Positions 1-51,830 of a DNA stretch of 64,000 nucleotides are shown in pieces (the first letter of the stretch is position 1; every line of letters begins with the position of its first letter). The notes beneath the pieces were generated by a model, which did not search any database, was not told the DNA's origin, and saw nothing but the letters and a program-made list of their open reading frames with translations. The DNA lies in the NCBI GenBank assembly GCA_021234155.1, contig JAJEKV010000279.1:124001-188000 (forward strand), read 5' to 3'. This stretch comes from Isoetes taiwanensis (Eukaryota > Streptophyta > Lycopodiopsida > Isoetales > Isoetaceae). Both the position numbers and the translations under genes were made by a program.

Positions 1-2260
1 ATGGTTTGATGCGGATCAGAAGAAGAACGCAGCTTTCCGCAGCCACATCCCGGATCCGTGCAATTCGCCAGCCACCACACGCATCACGCCCATCCGGAAG
101 GACACAAAGCGCCGTACCTTGCCAAGCATCGTGGGGAGATGTTCGGCTCGGCTGACACTCATCCTCAACCTTTTGGCGCAGAGGCTTCAAGGCCGCCCGA
201 CCTTACGTGGGGACATCACACCGAGGCGGGGAATAAAGACATTGCAAAGCAGCCTCTATGACCCGGGCCAGGACGCTGTGGGGCAGCGTCCCCCACCCCA
301 GATGGCCCCCATTGGTTCTCGTGGATGAGGATGTTGAGGAGGGCCCGCGAACGCTAGCTAATGGGAAGGCGGTGACCCTCGATGGTATGCGTGCCGAAGT
401 TACTCAAGTGGGCGGCAGCCGCTTGTGCTTGGCCCTCACTACCCCGTTCAACGAGCATTGCAAGAGGGTTTCCGACAATGGACCACAAGTGGTTGTTCCC
501 ATTCAAGCGGGCGACCCACACCGTCCGCCAACCACGGACGATCATGGTCGGTTCAGTATTTGCCAACCGTTGGTCGGCATTCTCGAAGCGGCTAGTTGAC
601 CGGGCAGAGGCGTGGATGCGCGAGCCCTCACGCAAGGCGGGCTTCGGGACCACAGCCACTCAGCGATTGACCATATCTTTACTGGCCTGGGCACCGATTA
701 GCACCGGAATCACCTAGGCTGGACTTGTATTGCTGCTTTTGTGGACTTCGCGAAAGGCTTTTGATACGGGCCCCCGAAAAGTTGTGGGCTAGATCAGGCC
801 GTTAACCTGGGGCTCCGCTTTTGTGCGTAATGCCATATACAAAGTTGTATGAGAGTTGTTTTGGCAGATGCGATCGACGGGCCAAGCATTTACTCAGTAT
901 CGGGTCGGCAGTGGTTGCCCCTCTCGCCACCACTTTTGGCCTCTACATTGATCAGTTAGAGCCCTGGCTTACTGAGCATGGGGGGATGGCATACAGCTTT
1001 TGCACCAGGTCATCCGCTACTCATCTATGCGGGACGATGTTGGCTCGGCGGCCCACACCCCGAAGATATGCGGTCTCACACGGATGCCCTAGACACATTT
1101 TGTCGCTACGACATTACGCGCGTCAATCTGCCAAGACCGTGGTGGTTCTCATATCCTCTTCATCGCCACCCCATGCCTCCCGCACTCACATATCGGGGGC
1201 GGCTGGGCGCCACGCCCACCTACAAGTACCTAGGGGTGGAGTTCCCCTCCTCGCTCTGGGCTGAGGCGTCTATCCGCTTATGTGTGAAGCAGGCCGAAGC
1301 GCTTTATGCAATGCGTAACAAATCACCAGGCAGAGCTATATGATTGGGGCCATCGGTCACATCCTGCTTACCGGGTCGAGCCCGCCCTTCAGACGGGTCG
1401 AGGTTTAGCGGAATCGTCTCTTTGACGACACTGGAATGACTTGGGAGGCAAAAGTGTAAGGCATTTTTGGCTGGCACTTGGGGTGAAACCTTCATCCCCC
1501 TATCGGTTTCTTTGCAGAAACCGGATTCTTGCCGCCGGGGCTGGGATTCTTGATAGACACATCGTCTATTTTCGAAAAGTGGTTACTATGGGTGATGCTC
1601 GCCCCGCGACTGGCTTACACTGTGGGCCATGAGTCCGCAGTGGCTTAGAAATTGGAGGGTAAGAGAGATCGGTGGTTCGCCAGATGGAACGGCAGAGCAC
1701 AGATGCGCATACCGGGCGCAATGTCGATCGTGTGTACCGGGGAGTACCTAGATGCTTGTTTCCTTGGCAAGCTCGGGGACCCCATTGCTCTAGAGCAGGT
1801 CAAAATGGCCCATTACAAGGAGCACATCAACCCCTGAAAGTTAGTCGGGGCCCACGCCTCTAGCCCTCGAAAAGCGCAGCTCATTGCCTCCATTCAAGAC
1901 AGTGCCCACCATCTTCGCGATCGACTCGGGTGGATTGGGAGCCCCCGACGGCAGACGTGCTCGGCTGTCGGCTTTGCCAAACAGATTGGTGCCGTTGAGG
2001 ATGAGTCTCACACTTTCCGAGTTGCCCCGCTCACCGATTCGGGCAGATCGCTCTCTTAGAAATTTTGGGCGTGCCCTTGCATTTTCACGATGAACACACC
2101 GCCGTCGATGCGTGCCGCGGGGTCATACATCCGAGGTACTTGGACTGCGAGGTCACCTTTGCCCCCCACTGTTGTCCGTGACTAGGCACTACTGGGTGGT
2201 GCATGACCGTATATATTGGGATGTTTACGCATTTTATATGATTAGTACGGTTTGTCGGTG

Positions 2261-2322
2261 ATTGTCGCCACGGTTTTTCCCTCGAAACCCTTCGGTGGGG
2301 GTTTTTTAATCGAGGCGATAAT
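2261..2322 (+). other. Structured 3' motif of LINE family A
   Basis: A stem of ATTGTCGCC (2261-2269) with GGCGATAAT (2314-2322), including one G-U pair, closes a loop holding GGTTTTTCCCTCG and GGGGGTTTTTTAATC. The same inner sequence with a different but still pairing stem occurs at 50807-50877 and 9347-9400, and in the recombinase element at 5873-5923. It is probably a 3' UTR RNA structure used for template recognition or 3' processing. The function is inferred; the pairing is seen directly. Confidence 0.65.
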
Positions 2323-2386
2323 CCGCTTGCGTTTTTGTATTGGGTCCCATAGACCGATTGGTCTCCGTGGACGATAAAAGTAACTT

Positions 2387-4188: not shown

Positions 4189-5163
4189 GTGGCTCTTTAT
4201 GTTTTCGTTGCCCATTTAATTAAATTTAACGTGGTTTTATGTTGTCTTGTGGCAGCTACCTCTCGCTTCCTTACCCCCCAGGAGGTCCCCTTGTTTCCTC
4301 TCCACTTTTGCTTTGGTGTTTTCCTCCCGCGCCCCATCCACCCTCACGGTTTACATGGCTATGTTCCGCTGCTTTGTTGCTTGGTGCCATCTACATTCTG
4401 TTTCATATCTCCCTGCTTCCTCCTTCGTCGTCGCGGCCTTTCCGCCTCTCTTCATCATCCTATTTTGGCCTCGGCAGCAATATCCTTTATTCATCAAATT
4501 TTCAAACCCCCAACCTTTCTTCCCCTTACGCCTCACCAATCTACCTCATTCGTCGCCCCCCCTCCCCAACACCTTTCTTTCCCTTTTACCTCAGCATGTA
4601 CGCTCTATTGTTCTCCATTTCGCGCATCCCACAGCCCCATCCCCCTCATCATGCTTTCCTTTGCAGCTTTTTTGTGCATCTCTGAGGCCCTCGCACTCAA
4701 CTGGTGCGATCTCTCCTTTTCCTTGTCTTCTGTTGATCTTCTTATCTGCAATTCCAAATGAGACCAACTTGCCCGCGGTCATACGATTACTTTAGTTCAT
4801 TTGCCTTTGCTCGGATGTCCCATTACTATTCTCTAGCGTCTGATTTCTACGGGTACTTATCATCTCCTCATCCTGCTTCAGGCAGCCCTCTTTTTCGCGT
4901 CTCTCCCTCTTCTCTGCGCCCCTTATCCGATCCGACTGCCCGCTTATGGTGGAAGAGTTGTCTTCTCGCTATCGGCTTGGATCCATCCCCATATGGTACA
5001 CATTCTGTTCGTCGCGGCGGAGCCTCGGCAGCTGCGGCTCGGGGAGTTCCACATGATGCTGCTCGCACCCACGGTCGTTGGCGCTCCTCTTCTTCCCACT
5101 CTCGCTACGTGCTTCGTGAGCCGACTCAACACTTGGAGGTTTCTCGGCAGCTGGGCTTATAGC
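4189..5163 (+). pseudogene. Tyrosine recombinase of a Crypton/DIRS-type element, decayed
   Basis: The + strand carries, across at least two frames, a recognisable phage-integrase-fold recombinase. A Pro/Ser-rich core-binding segment lies near 4.5-4.65 kb. Then come LCISEALALNWCDL near 4.67 kb (the first catalytic Arg appears replaced by Cys), a beta-hairpin with Lys (LLICNSK, 4.75 kb), and a continuous 134-codon frame to the stop at about 5161. That frame contains HSVRRGG (the H-x-x-R box), HGRWRS (the His/Trp box) and SRYV with the nucleophilic Tyr. A TGA after the Lys and an internal TAG show decay. Such recombinases move Crypton, DIRS and Ngaro elements through circular DNA. No RT was found beside it, so Crypton or a truncated DIRS are both open. 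Composition is GC-richer than the flanks. Confidence 0.75.
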
Positions 5164-5180
5164 TAAGGAAGTTCTCTGGT

Positions 5181-5208
5181 AGTCGGCTAGTTTTGTGTCT
5201 CATGCGAG
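5181..5208 (+). repeat. Direct repeat, left copy, flanking the recombinase 3' region
   Basis: 28 bp beginning AGTCGGC and containing TTTTGTGTCTC. It matches 24 of 28 positions with 6054-6081. The two copies bracket the 0.85-kb 3' region of the recombinase element. They may be split direct repeats or termini of the element. Confidence 0.5.
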
Positions 5209-5264
5209 TCCCTTCCCAGAATCGCATCGATCCGAGCCCTCGGATCGCCATTCTGGGCAGGGAC
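5208..5264. repeat. 57-bp palindrome just after the recombinase gene
   Basis: An inverted repeat with outer arms GTCCC/GGGAC, middle arms CCCAGAAT/ATTCTGGG and perfect inner arms CGATCCGAG/CTCGGATCG around a 2-bp centre. It lies 45 bp after the recombinase stop and just before a TATATAAG sequence. This is the size expected of a paired recombinase-binding site or a strong hairpin. Which of these it is cannot be decided from sequence alone. Confidence 0.6.
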
Positions 5265-5872
5265 GAGCTATTATATAAGAACACTTCACATTTGAGAACA
5301 GTTATCAGCGTCTTCTCACAGCAGCCCTTCTTTCATTCCCATTGCTTCCCTCCCTGCCCACCCTGATTTGTTGGGGCGCTCATCTCTTTATTCAAATGGG
5401 TTTTTGTTCATGCACTCTTTTATTGTTATCCACCCTTGGGTGTTGCTATAATAATGTTTTTTTTTTTCGTCGGCATCATGCCGCATTATTCTCCACCTGT
5501 GGGTGGTGTTATTTATTTCCACCTCGAGGGTGACGCACATTTCTTTTAGCATGTTCATTTTTCCATCCGCTGGGTGACGCTCCACCCTATGGGTGATGCT
5601 ATCTCCTCTTTTTGCTATGTATTTTTGTTTTTCATATGTCCTCATCGCTCACATCGTTTTGGGTGCTTGTTGTTGTGCAGCTTGCCGTGTCACTGCCATG
5701 CACGTTTTGGTTCTCTTTAACCAGTCGCGGGTGTTTTGTCGGTGTTCTCCGTTTTGCTTGCAGGTATTACGCTGTCTCGCAGTGTTCATTCCATTGTGCA
5801 TTCACCATCGACCCACCTCCTTCAATTCTCCAGGCAACACATTCAAGGTTGTTGGCGACCATTTCTCATTAG

Positions 5873-5923
5873 GGTTTTCCTCGAAAACCCGAAAGGGCGG
5901 GGTTTTTTTTATCCCGATGAGAA
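5873..5923 (+). other. Structured 3' motif in the recombinase element
   Basis: A perfect 7-bp stem TTCTCAT (5873-5879)/ATGAGAA (5917-5923) encloses GGGTTTTCCTCG and GCGGGGTTTTTTTTATC. This is the same arrangement as in the LINE family A 3' ends, although the stem sequence is unrelated. Confidence 0.6.
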
Positions 5924-6053
5924 GTTGTCGTCATTATCCTTCTATACTGCCTGTGCACATTTCTTCTTTACTGGGTAGCTCAATATTGTTCCTATGGTCA
6001 GCTCCCCATCTCTATTATTCAAACATTGTATACTGCTACTGTGATGAATGACA

Positions 6054-6081
6054 AGTCGGCCGATTTTGTGTCTCTTGCGAG
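6054..6081 (+). repeat. Direct repeat, right copy
   Basis: Partner of 5181-5208 with four mismatches; includes TTTTGTGTCTCTTGCGAG. It is a possible right boundary of the recombinase element. Confidence 0.5.
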
Positions 6082-6089
6082 ACTTATCT

Positions 6090-9000
6090 CAAAATCATAG
6101 AGATGTCAAAATATGGTTATGGAATGCATTTTTTACTTACATCTAAATGCTTTTCAAATCAACTTCCTCGTAACCTGGTGAAAGAACTCGTCTGTGCTTA
6201 CGGATGGTTGCAAGATGCTGCGGCTTGAGAGTTTCGACGGTGCGGAGGTTTCTGGTTTTTTTCCTCGCCCTCTTGAAATTTTATTTGACGTGCTATTTTT
6301 TAGCTCGAGGGCTAGTGTTAGGGCGCATTACCTTCTCGTCCCAATCTCCAGCTTTGCCATATCACCTAAACTAGGAGTGGATTTTGGCGCCATTTCTATT
6401 GCAAATCAGAGAAAATTCAAACTAAAGGACATTTTTATTGCAGATCAGAGAAAATTCAAACTAAAGAACAAGAAAACAGGGCAAGAACTGGAATCATTAC
6501 GAATGCTCTATCTAGAAGACAAAAATTTTGACAAACCCATTTCCTATAAATGGGGAATTCAGAAGTACTAGAAGGCTTATGAAGAAAGAAGAGGTGCCTC
6601 CGCCGTGTCATCGTAAACGGGAAATTGGGATTGCAGTGTGAACTTCAATTTTAAAATCGGGTTTGCCACACAACGAAGGCAACTTCGTTTTGGTGCGTAA
6701 TGGGGATGGGCTCTTAACAAGGTGTTGTTGCACAGTGTGCTGCCCTCATAAATAGGATTGAGACATTTGTTAAATTCAAGTTATTTAGTTGAGCTTTTGA
6801 GCTGCTTTGAGTAGCAAAAACTTAACTTATACTCTATGTATAGAAACTCCTAACCCAATTGCATAAAATAATATGACATTGCATAAAATATATTTGTGGG
6901 TAATCAATATGGATATTTGCATATCTAGACCAAAACAAATGGGCCTTTAAAAGAGAAACTAAATACCAGTTTCAAGGCATGTTTAATAATATGCACCTGA
7001 TGCACCTGCTATTTTTGAGATGCACACACGACATCCATTTGTGATACTGAAGGGGAACAACACTGGCAGAAATAATGAGAGACGAATATGTGCTGATAGA
7101 GTTATACAGCGCACAACACACAGGTAAGTCTTAGTTCCTTATTTTAAATATATGCTGATAGAGTTATACAGCACACAGGTAAGTCCTAGTTCCTTATTTT
7201 TCTGAATATAGATCATTAACAGTTTTAAACTAACGAACTCCATATATAACTCCTTAAACTCTGAAATCATCTTTCTTCGAATACATTGCTTTACTATACA
7301 TGTTATCTCACTTTGAATCTTTCACTAGGAACTGAAGATGAGATATGATTTGATGCTGATGGACACTTATAATATAAATCAGATGATGAATACAGAAGCG
7401 TTTCAAAAGGTCATAGTTTAAAGTGATCTGCTGCGTATTCTATATTATGCATTAGTTGTTTAGATCATAACCAGTCTATTATGTTTCGTGCCATATATAT
7501 TTTATCTCTTCAGGGAATTCCTTGAGTCTTCCAAGGGATAGCTTTGCAACTCCAAAGCTCTCGTTCTCACTCATCAGAGGGAGGTGGTTAATAACCAGAG
7601 CATGGAGGCAATGAAATTAGAGATCCCTTTAGATGTTGTAGCGTTCGAATCAAGCAATGGTGTTGGGTCACTTAAGCCATATTGACATTGAAAATCAATT
7701 ATCACATGAAAACGTGTAGCTTTTGCTAAATATTCACATTCTATGCAATAAGCAATGCATTTTCTTTTAATAGTTGCCATGGTTAGTTGAAGGAACTCAA
7801 ATCTTTGGTGAATTTCACAGTGAGTAATTTGATGTATTTATTTATGTGAGCGAATGTCGAGTAACTATATTTCTTCTGCAAACTCCTTTGCCACTCGAGG
7901 ATTTATAGAATGGCCTATGGTAGGATCCCAACTTCCTTATTTTGTGGAGTGTCTGGAAGGGTGTTGGAGTTAAGCCTTCAACATTAAAGTTATGGGCATA
8001 ACATTTCCTGAGGCTCGATATACCAACTTTATTTTATATTTTTCAATTTCTGCAGTTTTACTCGTTAGTTTGTTCACCATAGAGCTTTGTATTATTTGTC
8101 TATAGTAGTATGCCATTATGCCACTATCCTGATCAATTTTTGTACTTCTATTATTTACTAGAAGTGTGAAGTGGCAGTGATGCCAAATTATAGAACATTT
8201 ATAGTCTAAGGTCAAAGATCTCAATGCCCTTTTCATGTCGTAATATACAACTATGTCGATTGTCTTATAAACAATAAATCACTTGGCAGTACTTTGAATT
8301 TTCATGTTTCATAGAATTTATGATGCAGGGATAAGAAAAAGGAACATGCTCCATGTAAGTACATGCTCCATATATAATTAAGTGTTTAATTTTATGCTTT
8401 TCCATATAATTAAGTGTTTAATTTTCTTGGCACGGATATCTATCTATCTTCTAATAAAATTTATCACATAGCATGATTTATTGATCTGTAAGCCGTTCTT
8501 TATAAGGGCGCCTCCTCATTTTCTTTATGAATTCTAGTTTAGAACATTGTACAAGTGAAAATAGTGGTATGAGATAATGAATTTTGCTACACGTTCTCTT
8601 TATCAATATGCAAGTTCATGCAAGCAAGTTATGCCATCTTGAGTAGAGTCATGTCTCTACTCAAGCTATGTTTGTGTGCATAATTTGTAGTTTCTTGCTC
8701 ATGTGGCTCTATTTTAAGACTACTGCTTTTGATGTGATGACCTCGTAATGAAAATTGGTTCCTTTGTTGTAAATCATTAGCATTTTCGGATACATGAGAC
8801 ATCCTAGTCTATTGGTTTAGGTATGTATTTTGAGCAAACTTTTGTGCACGTGTTGAGATATTTTATTTTTTGGCAGTTTTATGTTCATATAACTAAATAT
8901 TCTATTACACCACATTCGGTCTTTTTGCAATAGTAAATGTGACCAACATTCTATTCTTACATTAATTGGTCAAGATAGTTTCCTGCGATAAAAGACCGAG

Positions 9001-9189: not shown

Positions 9190-9560
9190 AAATTAAAATA
9201 GACAAAACCCAATATAAAAGGAAGGAAGGAAGTTTATTTTAACGTCCACGTAGGCCAGAGGCCTATGAGACGGTACATGCAGAGAACAGGCAAAAAAGCC
9301 AAAAACCCCAACACCAAAAACAAACAATGCAACTGTACAGTAGAACCCTACTACCGGGATGAAAAAACCCCCACTTGGGAGGAAAAACCCTGACAGTAGG
9401 CTCTCAAATACCATGCCCCCGAAGAGCAAGTCTGACGGCCGAAATCTGCAGGATGTAAGCTCCCAATCGCGCTACCATAGGTGATGCGAGTAACTGATGT
9501 AGCGGTGTGTCAGAGCATCTAAGATCAGTGTGCACTGCTCGGACATGGGCAAAAATAAAC
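9190..9560 (-). mobile_element. LINE family A 3' end (copy 2a)
   Basis: Read on the minus strand, this contains the structured 3' motif (9347-9400), then CTACGTGGACGTTAAAATAA and a CTTC repeat at about 9221-9234. It is strongly 5'-truncated: only 3' UTR is present, with no coding sequence. The terminus matches copy 1 almost base for base (GTGGACG, A-rich, CTTC repeat). Confidence 0.75.
9347..9400 (-). other. Structured 3' motif (LINE copy 2a)
   Basis: On the minus strand, CCTACTGTC pairs with GGTAGTAGG (nine pairs, two of them G-U) around GGGTTTTTCCTCCC and GGGGGTTTTTTCATC. It is the third instance of the motif in a LINE. Confidence 0.6.
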
Positions 9561-9636
9561 AACTTACCTACGTAGAGAAGTGGTCTACTTTATTTTGAAT
9601 TGAAGTACTAGGGAGTTCTCAATACGAAATACAATA

Positions 9637-10420
9637 GATAGATAGATAGTTTTAATGTCACGCCACTAGGCAGCATCCAACTGGACATGTGACCTAAGAA
9701 CCGGGATAAAAAGATAAATTATAAAGCAGATGCAGTAGGGCAAAGGAGCAATAGAACAACGAGGCAACTAAGGCAAGAAGGAGAAGACAACGGGGGTAAC
9801 TAATAGTAAATTGAACAAAAGGGCCATTAGAGGCAATGAGGCACATGACAACAAGGAGGTATGGTAAAGACCACCAAACAAGTAATGGACGCCAACCATG
9901 AATAAATAAAGATAAGCAGCATGAGGTCCAATGAACCAATGCAAACAGTGCAAACGGAGCAACAAAATGAATGCAATGAAATGGATCCATCGGAGGGATA
10001 TTACTTGGCCCCAAGACTGCGTTCCTGTATAGAAGAATGAATACCACCAACACCCTAAATAATTGCGACTGATGGGCCCATCATATAGCTCCACTTTGTG
10101 ACTATTGTTCTGCATTGCATACAGTGTTTTCCAACCTGCTGTCACTCGTAGCCGCATGGAAGCATCCCGCTACATGGTAAAAGTTACCTCCATTTTTCAA
10201 GACTTGTAGGTGGGCGTTAGCTCCACATTTTGCTCTCGGTAACTGAATGGTGGGGCTTTGGCCGATATGAGGATGAGATGAGCATCACCTGTGTCTTGGC
10301 TAGATTGACATGCATGTCAATGGCCTGACAGAATGTGTCCAGGGTATCGAGATGGCACTGCATATCTTCTAGAGTGTAAGTTAGGAGGTTCACATCATCA
10401 ATATATATGAGCTGCTAAAA
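9637..10420 (-). mobile_element. LINE family A fragment with RT active site (copy 2b)
   Basis: The minus strand encodes the RT catalytic box LIYIDDVNLLTYT near 10.40 kb, followed by a VNLAKTQVMLISSS block as in copies 1 and 4, then a long decayed C-terminal region and 3' UTR. It ends in CGTGACATTAAAAC and an ATCT tetranucleotide repeat (9637-9653). The 5' part is missing beyond about 10.42 kb. The YIDD box is intact, but downstream frames are broken. It sits 80-90 bp from copy 2a in the same orientation, so it is either a separate insertion or a duplication. Confidence 0.75.
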
Positions 10421-18269: not shown

Positions 18270-18976
18270 CCATTTTTATCGCAGATAGGAGGACTCCACG
18301 CACTCTAAGAAAGCGTGTTGCTCATCTTCCACAAGAGCCCTTCTACAACATGAGCAAAAACGGAGCTGTCTTGCTATATCATGGAAGTGACATACTTCAA
18401 TTTCCAATTTATGGCTACTTAATCTTGCTTCCGATATTAGTTTCTTCTTCCTGGCACTGAGATCTGCATTTAAATATCCCTGCTCAGCATATACCAACAG
18501 TGGATTGATCTCACGTCTATAAGTCAATTTTTACTCCGGTGTTTTCCCATATTCTTTGAAGCATGTTATCATGTACTAGGCACCGAATTCCAGCATCTGA
18601 TTCTGACATATCATGAATGTCAATCCCCCAAGTGCTTGCCCACTCACACGCTTCTGATACCGTCCTGAATGTTCTTGCAAATGAGATTCTACTAGTGCCT
18701 GAAATGGAACTCTATTATCACTTAAGTTTCTCACTCTGCCCAAGTAGGAAAGGGTTAAATACAACGATTCTCCTTCAAGAGGAAGAAAACCAACTTCCGC
18801 TAAGAGCACTGCATATGGTGTTTGGGCTTTGACCCCCAATTCACTGAGGAGGAAACGTTTTTGAACATCCTCAACCTTTCCCCACATTTCCTTAGATAAG
18901 CCGGGCCCCATACTTGGCACCCATAAAGCAAAACTGGTTGCACCAGTGTTTTGTACATAAGCTTGGAGCGCCGTAT
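18270..18976 (-). mobile_element. LINE family A C-terminal fragment (copy 3)
   Basis: The minus strand encodes KMWGKVEDVQKRFLLSELG-like text (18576-18920; seen as EMWGKVEDVQKRFL then LGVKAQTPYAVLLAEVGFLPL). This aligns by eye with LEKVQKAFLAQTLGMKSTTPYQILLQ of the 49-kb copy. A Cys/His cluster follows (CSCCRRALVEDEQHAFLEC, 18.3 kb) that is typical of LINE C-termini. The RT active site and the 3' structured motif are absent. The fragment is cut at its upstream end by the MITE at 18980. Confidence 0.8.
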
Positions 18977-48874: not shown

Positions 48875-49195
48875 CAGAGTTGTTCCTATCTACATGGCAG
48901 GTGACCCGCACAAGAGAAATTCACTCATGTATAAGGGGGATATGTCGTCTTCGTGCATGTGGTGGAAAAATCCCCCCAGTATACGGATTTTTAAAAGCAA
49001 ATTTTGACCCCTTCCGAATAGAAATTACCTAGGCTAGTGCAAAAAATACCAGAAAAAGGACTCCTTGCCGACCGTATATGTACGAAAATGGGTCGAAAAA
49101 ACCCCCCTCCCGCACATGCACATGCACATAGTTTATATATAAAAAGCGAGAATCCCTCTTGGACCCGCACTGCCCAGACAATTACTGAACAATCA
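48875..49195. other. Short unassigned stretch
   Basis: GC-moderate DNA with CCCCCC runs and no recognisable frame, between the copia fragment and the LINE. Confidence 0.5.
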
Positions 49196-49199
49196 TTGC

Positions 49200-50960
49200 C
49201 TCGAGCAGCAGTTGATGGGTTCAGCGAGATTCAGGCCCCGGCACTCAACCATTGATCACATCTTCATGTTGCGGACTCTGATTGAAGACAACACGAACCA
49301 TCGGCAAGACCTGTATTGTTGCTTTGTGGACTTCGCCAAGGCCTTTGGCACTGTGCCTTGGAAAAATCTATGGTTGAGACAGCTGGGGGTCCTTGCAGAT
49401 CTACAAAATGCAGTGTACAAGAAATATGAGACATGCTCAGGCTGGTTGCAACCTACAGGCCAACCATTCGATAGTAGTATCAGGGTTCGCTAGGAATGCC
49501 CTCTCTCTCCAACATTGTTTGGGCTTTACATTGATCAATGAGAGAGCAGGATTGCTGACAATGGGGGCAACAGAGCTCACCTTTTGCACTAGGTCACCAG
49601 ACAGCTAATATATGATGATGATGTGGACCTCCTAGCTTACACTCTACATGCAGTGCCATCTCAATACCTTGGACACATTCTGCTATGCGACTAATATGCT
49701 CGTCAACATGGCCAAGACTAAGATGATCCTCATATCATTCTCACATCGGCCAAGGGTCCCCTCCTTCAGTTACCGGGGGTAAAATGTAGAAGCAGAATTT
49801 CCTTCTGCTATACACTGGGACACTTCCTTCCGGTTGGGAGCGATGGCGGGCTGAGGCACCATATGCAATGTAAAACAACAGTCACAAAGCGAAGTTGTAT
49901 GATTGGACTCGTCAATCGTACCTGTTCAGGGTCTTAGTGGAGCCCGTCCTTTTATACGGGGTCGAACTCTGGGGCTTGATGGTATTCCTCGCTACCTGGA
50001 ATGATTTGGAGAAGGTGCAAAAAGCTTTTTTAGCGCAAACACTAGGCATGAAGTCCACGACTCCATATCAAATCCTGTTGCAGGAAACAGGTTTCTTGCC
50101 TCTATAGAGGGTATCGCCATATTGTCTACTTTTAGAAGGTGGTCAACATGGACAATGCTCATCTCTCTAACATGTCTTATGCCATGGCAATGGGGTCACA
50201 TCGCCTTAAGGTCTGCTGGAAGGAAAAGAGAGCTCAGTGGCTAACCAGATGGAATATGCAGAAGCACAGGTGCATAAAGTACAAATAGAGGCATATCACC
50301 ATAGCTTGAGGCAATACCTTATGGCTTGTTTCCTCAGCAAGCTTTGGCATGCCAACGCCCGTGAATAGGTCAAGATAGCATATTACCAGCGCCAGATAGA
50401 CCCCACATTGGAACGGGGGCGCAACGCTACCTGCATACCCATTTGGTTATGAAAAGACGCAGACTCATTGCCTCGATTCGCATAGCGCACACCGTCTCTG
50501 AATTGAGATGGGCAGATGGATTGGGGAGCCACGCCAGGAGAGGCTTTGTCAACACTGCCAAATGGGAGCCGTTGAGGATGAATGCCATACCCTTCAGCAC
50601 TGTCCATTGTATGATCAACTAGATATGCTATGCTGAGTTGGTCAAGCTCGGCTAGCTGTCACATGTGATATTGAGCACGGCCTCAGTATGGATGCTGGGA
50701 TCATACCTTCTGGAGGTCATGGATATGCGGATGAGCTATGTTCTCGGACACTCACCTGACATGTATATATATTTTATGATGTATATTTGTACAGTTTGAC
50801 AACATTCTTATTACTGCCACGGTTTTTCCCTCAAGAACTTTTCGAGATGGGGCTTTTTTAATCCAACCAGTAATAAGTCTGTTGCGCTTTCATGGTTGGC
50901 AAAATTTGCTTTGTCTTTTAGCCTTAAAACCTTTTTAAGAGAAGCAATGCCTTCAACCAC
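49200..50960 (+). mobile_element. LINE family A, RT to 3' end (copy 4)
   Basis: The best-preserved copy of the family. The + strand gives SARFRPRHSTIDHIFMLRTL (49.22 kb), LYCCFVDFAKAFGTVPW (49.31 kb), CPLSPTLFGLYIDQ (49.5 kb, new frame) and LIYDDDVDLLAYT (49.61 kb), where the usual YADD reads YDDD. The thumb/C-terminal region follows: LYGVELWGLMVFLATW and VQKAFLAQTLGMKSTTPYQI (49.94-50.08 kb). A 3' UTR carries the structured motif at 50807-50877. Stops and frameshifts separate the blocks. The LYG.E.WG C-terminus supports an RTE/CR1-like rather than plant L1 affiliation (family knowledge, not searched). Confidence 0.88.
50807..50877 (+). other. Structured 3' motif (LINE copy 4)
   Basis: A perfect 10-bp stem CTTATTACTG (50807-50816)/CAGTAATAAG (50868-50877) encloses CACGGTTTTTCCCTC and GGGGCTTTTTTAATCC. 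The inner block closely matches copy 1 while the stem bases differ throughout. Confidence 0.7.
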
Positions 50961-51048: not shown

Positions 51049-51830
51049 TAAGAGAAAAGCCCTTTTGGGCTTCTTTCTGAAGGCCGACGTGCGAAGCGTG
51101 GAGGTCTGCTTGACCCTTCAGAAAGAATCCCAAAAGGGCTTTGCCTCAACGTAAAGGACGGTTGGGCCCAATCCAGCCATCCACATGTCAAAGATCTAAG
51201 CATTGAAAGCAAAAGTGGCAGGTAAAAATAACAAAAAGGTAAGTAAGAATGACAGTAAACAAACAGAAAGGTACAGTAAAAACACATGAAAGTTCAATAA
51301 AAATTAAGTAGAGTTGCCGCATGATTTTCAATAAGAGAAAGCCCTTTGGGCTTCTTTCTGAAGGGGAAAGCAGGGCGACGCGCGAAGCACGGAGGTCTGC
51401 TTGACCCTTGGGCTTCTTTCTGAAGGGGAAAGCAGGCCGATGCGCGCCTTCAAAAAGAAGCCCAAAAGGGCTTTGCCTCAACATAAAAGACAGTTGGGCC
51501 CAATCCAACCATCCATGTGTCAAAGATCTAAGCATTGAAACCAGAAGTGGCAGGTAAAAATAACAAAAAGATAAGTAAGAATGACAGAAGATACAGTAAA
51601 CCTTTAGAAAGGTCCAGTAAAGAAACATGAAAGTTCAGTAAAAATAAAGTAGAGTTGCCACAAGCCTTTCAGGTTTAGAAAGTGCGACATGTGTCACCTT
51701 TTGATTGGATAGGATCGCTGGATTGGGCCCAACGTCCTTTACGAGACAGTCCTTTACGAGACAACACGTCACCATATGACGGCTGGATTGGGCCCAACCG
51801 GACGAGTGGTCATCTGCATTGTATGGTTTT
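51049..51830. repeat. Fold-back tandem repeat block
   Basis: Two tandem units (51049-51318 and 51332-51659), each starting with a hairpin whose arms are AAGCCCTTTTGGGCTTCTTT-like and its inverse, and each containing GGTTGGGCCCAATCCA and CAAAGATCTAAGCATTGAAA. The second unit has an extra internal copy of CTTGGGCTTCTTTCTGAAGG. After 51686 the GGGCCCAATCCAGCC block returns twice in inverted orientation (about 51719-51744 and 51781-51799). No coding content. It may be a fold-back or MITE-like element. Confidence 0.7.

Follow-up and report, generated by a model that had tools for sequence, protein, structure and literature searches.

Probable ENE-Type Hairpins in the 3' Regions of LINE and DIRS-Like Elements of the Quillwort Isoetes taiwanensis

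Introduction

What kind of element is a hairpin that recurs four times within 64,000 nucleotides of a quillwort genome, each time with a different stem that still pairs? The hairpins lie in a stretch of Isoetes taiwanensis DNA (contig JAJEKV010000279.1, positions 124,001 to 188,000 of the forward strand), the whole of which is called the window here and provides the coordinates given below. The original prediction, made from the letters of the window, took them for an RNA structure under selection, located in 3' parts of mobile elements and marked by stem covariation, suggested template recognition or 3'-end processing as its role, and knew no described motif of this form.

ENEs (elements for nuclear expression), as summarised in several papers, are hairpins whose long internal loop is rich in U on either strand; they are located near RNA 3' ends and bind poly(A) through a major-groove triplex and flanking contacts (PMC8704770, PMC11411715, PMC10078130, PMC12846552). 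Their described function is the protection of RNA 3' ends through this poly(A) triple helix. Judged by anatomy and position rather than by a database match, the quillwort hairpin, carried by retrotransposon RNAs in their 3' region, is very probably an ENE. It would thus be a known kind of RNA element, which is unusual here in its number, its hosts and its sharing between element classes.

Four Hairpins in the Window

Direct reading of the sequence and folding showed that all four hairpins were present and folded as described. In each, the two strands of a lower stem with its own sequence enclose an apical stem-loop that has one U tract on its 5' side and another on its 3' side. Three sites stood as originally placed, at 2261..2322 (plus strand), 9347..9400 (minus strand) and 50807..50877 (plus strand), while the fourth, at 5863..5923 (plus strand), had to be moved, its 5' strand beginning at 5863 and not at 5873; there TTCTCAT (5863-5869) pairs with ATGAGAA (5917-5923). 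The copy at 2261 may serve as the example: its lower stem is formed by 2261-2269 with 2314-2322, its U5 tract occupies 2274-2278 and its U6 tract 2302-2307 with the apical stem-loop between them, and its innermost lower-stem pair is G-U, followed by G-C. Compared with dinucleotide shuffles, the copies at 2261, 9347, 50807 and 5863 gave fold z scores of -3.2, -2.0, -2.0 and -2.3, and 0, 7, 8 and 4 shuffles (each of 200) folded as well.

The three copies at 2261, 9347 and 50807 had been attributed to one "LINE family A." All three do belong to LINEs, but not to one family, as the copy at 9347 (group B) differs in loop sequence from the other two, with a short apical loop, no A4 bulge and CATC after the U tract. 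At 5863, the 5' U tract is just 4 U long and is paired with the internal AAAA in the minimum-energy fold. This U4 may be an assembly error, as may other shortened U or A runs among the copies of this long-read assembly.

A covariance model was built from 23 copies, namely the four of the window and 19 picked by eye for diversity from 40 of the 41 exact-core genome matches (see below). Searched against the window, it returned exactly the four known copies, at 2248-2337 (70.5 bits), 9413-9332 (57.3 bits), 50797-50889 (67.9 bits) and 5849-5939 (83.2 bits); because all four are in the training set, this search shows only that the window holds no fifth copy at E = 10.

Genome-Wide Copies and Stem Covariation

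Pattern searches covered the assembly from which the window comes (1,658,258,908 bases in 1,110 contigs). A search with the exact core as first reported gave 41 matches, and its reversed form gave 0. A relaxed but still strict core, GGTTTTTCCN{8,38}GGTTTTTTNATC (U5, then GG-U6-NATC), gave 10,263 matches (5,054 + 5,209) against 1 for the reversed control, and a variant with GGGC before U6 gave 24. These counts are lower bounds, since copies with other U-run lengths fall outside the patterns. For the analyses below we sampled the first 81 of 100 listed strict-core matches in listing order, with the flanks disregarded (80 loci, L041-L120).

The original prediction had proposed flank pairing against shuffled controls as its own refutation test. 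The mean stem score was 31.2 with a copy's own flanks and 10.4 with shuffled flanks (8,100 shuffles). Flanks taken 60-260 nt further out also scored 10.4 (486 cases), and 3' flanks swapped in from other clusters scored 16.4 (5,404 pairings); the latter value exceeds that of the shuffles, indicating that the families share some stem sequence. The 99th percentile of the shuffles was surpassed by 64 of 81 copies with their own flanks, by 1,070 of 5,404 swapped pairings and by 4 of 486 outer ones. The remaining 17 of 81 lower stems stayed within that percentile, and the lowest of them included visibly decayed stems (e.g., L041, L104, and L084) and group B copies, whose stems are interrupted.

In an alignment of the 81 copies (68 distinct rows), 93.1% of cells were paired, compared with 35-53% when the strands were slid against each other. 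Cells changed on both sides numbered 112, against 32.2 +/- 4.0 in shuffles and 8-29 in slid controls. Two of the five measures were weaker: pairs with a both-side change amounted to 10 against 7.4 (18 of 500 shuffles reached this value), and further pair types to 28 against 25.5 (34 of 500). The recombinase family alone, aligned in 20 rows (17 of the 22 copies of cluster 0, the window copy, L132 and L133), contained 36 both-side-changed cells against 9.2 +/- 2.6, with further pair types again weak (53 of 500), and the 23-row set contained 41 against 18.7 +/- 3.7. These shuffle statistics ignore relatedness among copies, which the slid controls and the between-cluster swaps cover in part. Without a given structure, RNAalifold found the lower stem and the upper closing pairs, with both-side change in 11 of 18 pairs; the small apical hairpin was not predicted from the 81-row alignment. 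Stems that differ in sequence and still pair are seen in all four window hairpins and, as strong compensatory change, throughout the genome, and the covariation beyond shuffled and slid controls supports a selected RNA structure as originally proposed.

Anatomy of the Hairpin

The copies share the core GG-U5-CC ... GG-U6-(A/C)AUC, in which the internal loop is bounded at both ends by G-C closing pairs. Below it lies a lower stem of variable sequence that pairs in most copies; the loop consists of facing tracts of U5 and U6-7, and the upper stem in many copies ends in a GAAA or UUCG tetraloop (apical hairpin loops of the 81 copies: UUCG or GAAA 21 + 15 and 19, other 26). The four window copies thus have a stem-loop that is U-rich on both internal-loop strands, with helices flanking the loop and G-C pairs adjacent to it; these are read from the sequence in the window copies, and the lower stem covaries. 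Genomic position puts the hairpin on the sense strand near the predicted RNA 3' end. The statement that no described motif fits was not sustained, as this is the anatomy of an ENE. Rfam gave no family at gathering score in the window, and only chance-level matches around 2201-2420.

The constancy of the U tracts and of the two loop-closing G-C pairs among the 81 copies carries no evidential weight, since the search pattern fixed them. The pair one step further down the lower stem, at which the pattern left the 3' base unspecified, was kept in 79 of 81 copies, and among LINE copies found by anchors that contain no ENE letters, exact GGTTTTTCC was kept on the 5' side in 83 of 100 listed (by eye).

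When the 81 copies were folded alone, the loop as drawn was frequently disfavoured, which speaks against the ENE reading: the upper closing pair exceeded 50% in 37 copies and the lower closing pair, tested in one register, in 17. The 5' U tract paired with the internal AAAA at more than 50% in 18 of 81, and among the larger clusters this was most frequent in LINE cluster 2. We also considered AAAACCC/GGGUUUU pairing as the main fold, and rejected it as the common structure because group B lacks it and LINE A1, LINE A2 and the L062/L072 family have not kept its third pair. Competition from this pairing is strongest in LINE cluster 2 and the recombinase family.

Host Elements

By their tails, 53 of the 81 sampled copies are of LINE type (clusters 1, 2, 3, 4, and 6 plus five single copies), the terminal motif being present in 51 and a microsatellite tail in 49. 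In the window, tblastn with the LINE protein of locus L126 identified a decayed reverse-transcriptase coding remnant at 888..2167 (plus strand), the end of which lies about 95 nt 5' of the ENE at 2261; the 3'-terminal motif GGTCTCCGTGGACGATAAAA follows at 2360..2379 (plus strand, by sequence), and then a (TTCC)n tail. The second remnant, at 9422..10414 (minus strand, tblastn), ends about 20 nt 5' of its ENE, although its last piece, 9553-9422, is weak (E 0.001), and the terminal motif with 1 mismatch lies at 9237..9256 (minus strand) before a TTCC-repeat tail. The third, at 49459..50730 (plus strand, tblastn), ends about 75 nt 5' of its ENE; RVT_1 was matched at 49143-49490 with E 7.7e-05, below Pfam's cut-off, and no terminal motif was found downstream of this ENE with up to 3 mismatches. 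In these three remnants and in L126, the ENE is on the sense strand, 3' of the coding part. A fourth remnant matching the L126 protein (18,279-18,958, minus strand) had no ENE found nearby.

The ENE adjoins the LINE 3' terminus, the distance from the end of its core to the terminal motif being 34-108 nt and mostly about 50-105 nt in motif-matched LINE-type copies. These copies end in microsatellites, not in poly(A). No run of 12 or more A occurred within 260 nt downstream in any of the 53 LINE-type copies, so that the DNA shows no poly(A) partner. An A-run of 3-7 precedes the microsatellite tail in the 51 LINE copies with the motif.

By eye, a second conserved hairpin adjoins the LINE tail, with the form GACC-loop-GGUC, GGCC-loop-GGUC or GGCC-loop-GGCC according to family; it is followed by the A-run and the microsatellite (TTCC, TATTC or similar), as at 2330-2406 and 9225-9290 (minus strand) in the window and in loci L041-L120. 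In some LINEs the enzyme recognises a terminal stem-loop, and the quillwort tail hairpin is similar. Downstream of the third copy, at 51060-51480, there are repeated inverted stretches of the type AAGCCCTTTTGGGCTTCTTTCTGAAGG.

We further took a census from the tail side. The LINE terminal motif GGTCTCCGTGGACGNTAAAA matched 10,029 times in the genome (reversed control 0), a count that leaves out group B tails (GGCCTCC). An ENE was present at 44 of the first 65 listed tails: 25 had a strict ENE, as judged by comparing the strict-core and tail lists by eye, and 19 of the other 40 had one recognised by the model (10 + 9; two weak, L142 and L170). The figure of 19 omits a second weak match in L147 and an antisense match in L169, and the weakly matching L172 was counted as cut. 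At the 21 tails without a complete ENE, similarity to eight reference copies stops 3' of the ENE or inside it, and none of the 65 tails showed reference similarity running past the ENE site with no ENE there; a LINE family absent from the eight references would look cut in this comparison, and L139 and L140 are near-identical. Counted by anchors outside the ENE, LINE copies numbered 481.

A second host type was a DIRS-like tyrosine-recombinase family, to which 22 of the 81 copies (cluster 0) were assigned by flank resemblance. The tyrosine recombinase reported upstream of the fourth hairpin was recovered as a coding remnant at 4193..5159 (plus strand), 5' of the ENE at 5863, by tblastn, the L133 recombinase serving as query (88.5% identity across the final 96 aa). 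Phage_integrase was weak in this remnant (E 0.06) and reached E 4.3e-08 in L133, where it occurs in one element with RVT_1 (1.9e-15), so that relatives of the window copy are DIRS-like. In L132 and L133, the ENE lies downstream of the recombinase gene on the sense strand. Outside the ENE, cluster 0 flanks resembled the DIRS-like elements above 100 shuffles in 19 of 22 copies downstream and 13 of 22 upstream, compared with 0 of 40 in both directions for LINE copies. L125, the single long cluster 0 copy that was read, had no recombinase or reverse-transcriptase match, and cluster 0 may therefore consist of terminal repeats or non-autonomous copies. Anchors outside the ENE counted 986 copies of the recombinase family. 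Both host types bear out the predicted genome-wide presence in the 3' parts of mobile elements. Within 4193-6100 of the window, sequence around 5169-5222 recurs by eye near 6051-6095, like split terminal repeats.

Six of the 81 copies were assigned to neither type. In the L062/L072 family, L122 contains a DDE_1 transposase ORF 4.2 kb upstream, and an ORF without a known domain ends 2.8 kb upstream; the transposase as host of this ENE family is unproven. The single-copy L063 cluster has an RVT_1 ORF ending about 860 nt upstream in L124. Neither this cluster nor the L052 cluster (three copies) resembled the DIRS-like flanks, except for L107, whose upstream score against L133 was 32, just above the shuffle maximum of 31. 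As side observations, ORFs at L122:1751-2972, 4-5 kb upstream of an ENE of a repeat family without an assigned host, contain HTH_psq (E 6.6e-07) and DDE_1 (3.8e-20), and at L127:3298-4428 an ORF with DUF7869 (E 9.4e-41) lies on the strand opposite to an ENE of the L052/L066/L107 family.

Function of the Hairpin

By analogy with known ENEs, the facing U tracts of the hairpin would capture poly(A) in a U-A-U triple helix and so stabilise the RNA. In the DIRS-like family, the clamped partner would probably be the poly(A) tail. For LINEs there are two candidates, a poly(A) tail that never enters the DNA copy or the 3-7 A immediately preceding the microsatellite tail.

The original prediction suggested template recognition, in which the LINE reverse transcriptase would bind the hairpin to begin copying. 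The short distance to the LINE terminal motif agrees with such a role, and the 21 of 65 tails without an upstream ENE, which reflect the usual 5' truncation, do not separate it from the ENE model. Nevertheless, the same hairpin is found in a DIRS-like element with reverse transcriptase and tyrosine recombinase, a kind of element not expected to use LINE-type priming, and in LINEs a different conserved hairpin borders the tail, which leaves template recognition as the weaker mechanism and an improbable one. A transcription terminator or 3'-end processing signal, that is, a G-C hairpin followed by a U run, is very unlikely: on inspection, the local form AAAACCC-GAAA-GGG-CGGGG-U6 does look like a terminator hairpin, but in the copies read the LINE sequence goes on past it as far as the terminal motif, and covariation extends to the outer stem, which lies beyond the U run. 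A DNA hairpin serving a transposase or recombinase would recall the long imperfect palindromes common at mobile-element ends, and it is hardly credible given that several stem positions of the 81-row alignment frequently have G-U pairs, that the apical loops alternate between GAAA and UUCG, and that the structure is not terminal in LINEs.

The ENE reading is in line with what is described for plant transposons. ENEs are established in plant transposon RNAs, one of them promoting transposition, according to the account in PMC12501189. In the Evade element of Arabidopsis (Copia93), as reported there, the U tracts and adjacent G-C pairs are needed for the triplex, a triplex with A20 was shown, and deletion of the ENE lowers RNA stability and transposition (PMC12501189). 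The quillwort hairpin resembles the Evade ENE, as far as that account describes it, in its U-rich foldback tracts, its adjacent G-C pairs and its location within the 3' region of RNA from a plant retrotransposon. In contrast, Evade is an LTR Copia element with four U-rich tracts, whereas here the hosts are LINE and DIRS-like, a single pair of U tracts is present and the copies number in the thousands. About 200 ENEs, mostly from plants and fungi and strongly tied to LTR retrotransposons, were described by Tycowski, Shu and Steitz in 2016 (cited in PMC12501189), and, compared through that citation, the quillwort hairpins fall in the same class as these transposon ENEs. MALAT1, as summarised in PMC11411715, combines a U-rich internal loop with an encoded A-rich tract and forms ten base triples; the LINE A-run would resemble this encoded tract, although here the 5' tract has about five U and the A-run only 3-7 A. 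None of the papers listed in literature searches dealt, by title or abstract shown, with ENEs in LINEs or DIRS-like elements.

If the ENE reading is right, natural ENE variants exist by the thousand in a lycophyte genome, spread over two or more retrotransposon classes, compared with the roughly 200 distinct ENEs cited for eukaryotes in PMC12501189, the quillwort ones being mostly within-family copies. They would then form a natural mutational series for a poly(A)-binding RNA, and they would pose the puzzle of what an ENE does in LINEs whose copies show no poly(A).

Sharing Between Element Classes

The recombinase cluster, the families without a placed host and the LINE A families share, apart from small variations, an apical part of the form CCUCG-AAAA-CCC-(GAAA or UUCG)-GGG-CGGGG. 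Between single representatives, the apical identity of the recombinase family was 0.75, 0.75 and 0.67 to LINE A1, A2 and A3; 300 shuffles for each comparison averaged 0.44-0.46 and peaked at 0.62-0.67. With the host-unplaced families, the recombinase family had an apical identity of 0.77-0.95. Group B reached 0.33-0.55 to the others, near its own shuffle maxima of 0.50-0.59. The outer flanks scored 0.35-0.55 between classes (raw scores, without a null), and the 3' outer flanks 0.77-0.81 among the LINE A families.

An apical part common to unrelated families suggests that one ENE moved between element classes, and one origin followed by such exchange is the simplest reading of the likeness in sequence; a common constraint on the loop could also have produced it. 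Exchange would make the ENE a case of an RNA stability part passed between unrelated mobile elements. We can extend this tentatively to a fuller model, which is possible but rather unlikely to hold as a whole. A single ENE lineage, now in more than 10,000 copies, would have passed between LINEs, DIRS-like elements and other repeats. In LINEs it would clamp the short encoded A-run, its conserved AAAA bulge could occupy the 5' U tract until a tail is present, giving a self-covering poly(A) sensor, and the folded ENE would be a barrier at which LINE reverse transcription sometimes stops.

Truncation of LINE Copies

Seven of the 21 LINE tails without a complete ENE have break points 100-30 nt before the terminal motif, and in four of these seven (L134, L148, L152, and L167) the break is no more than about 4 nt away from the U6 tract's 3' edge. 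This pattern held for 3 of 3 breaks in the first 20 loci, from which the idea came, and for 1 of 4 in the second 20, which alone is not significant. A truncation footprint at the ENE is thus an exploratory lead. Of the remaining breaks, two (L161 and L172) were located where AAAA meets CCC at the edge of the apical stem and one (L166) at the base of the lower stem.
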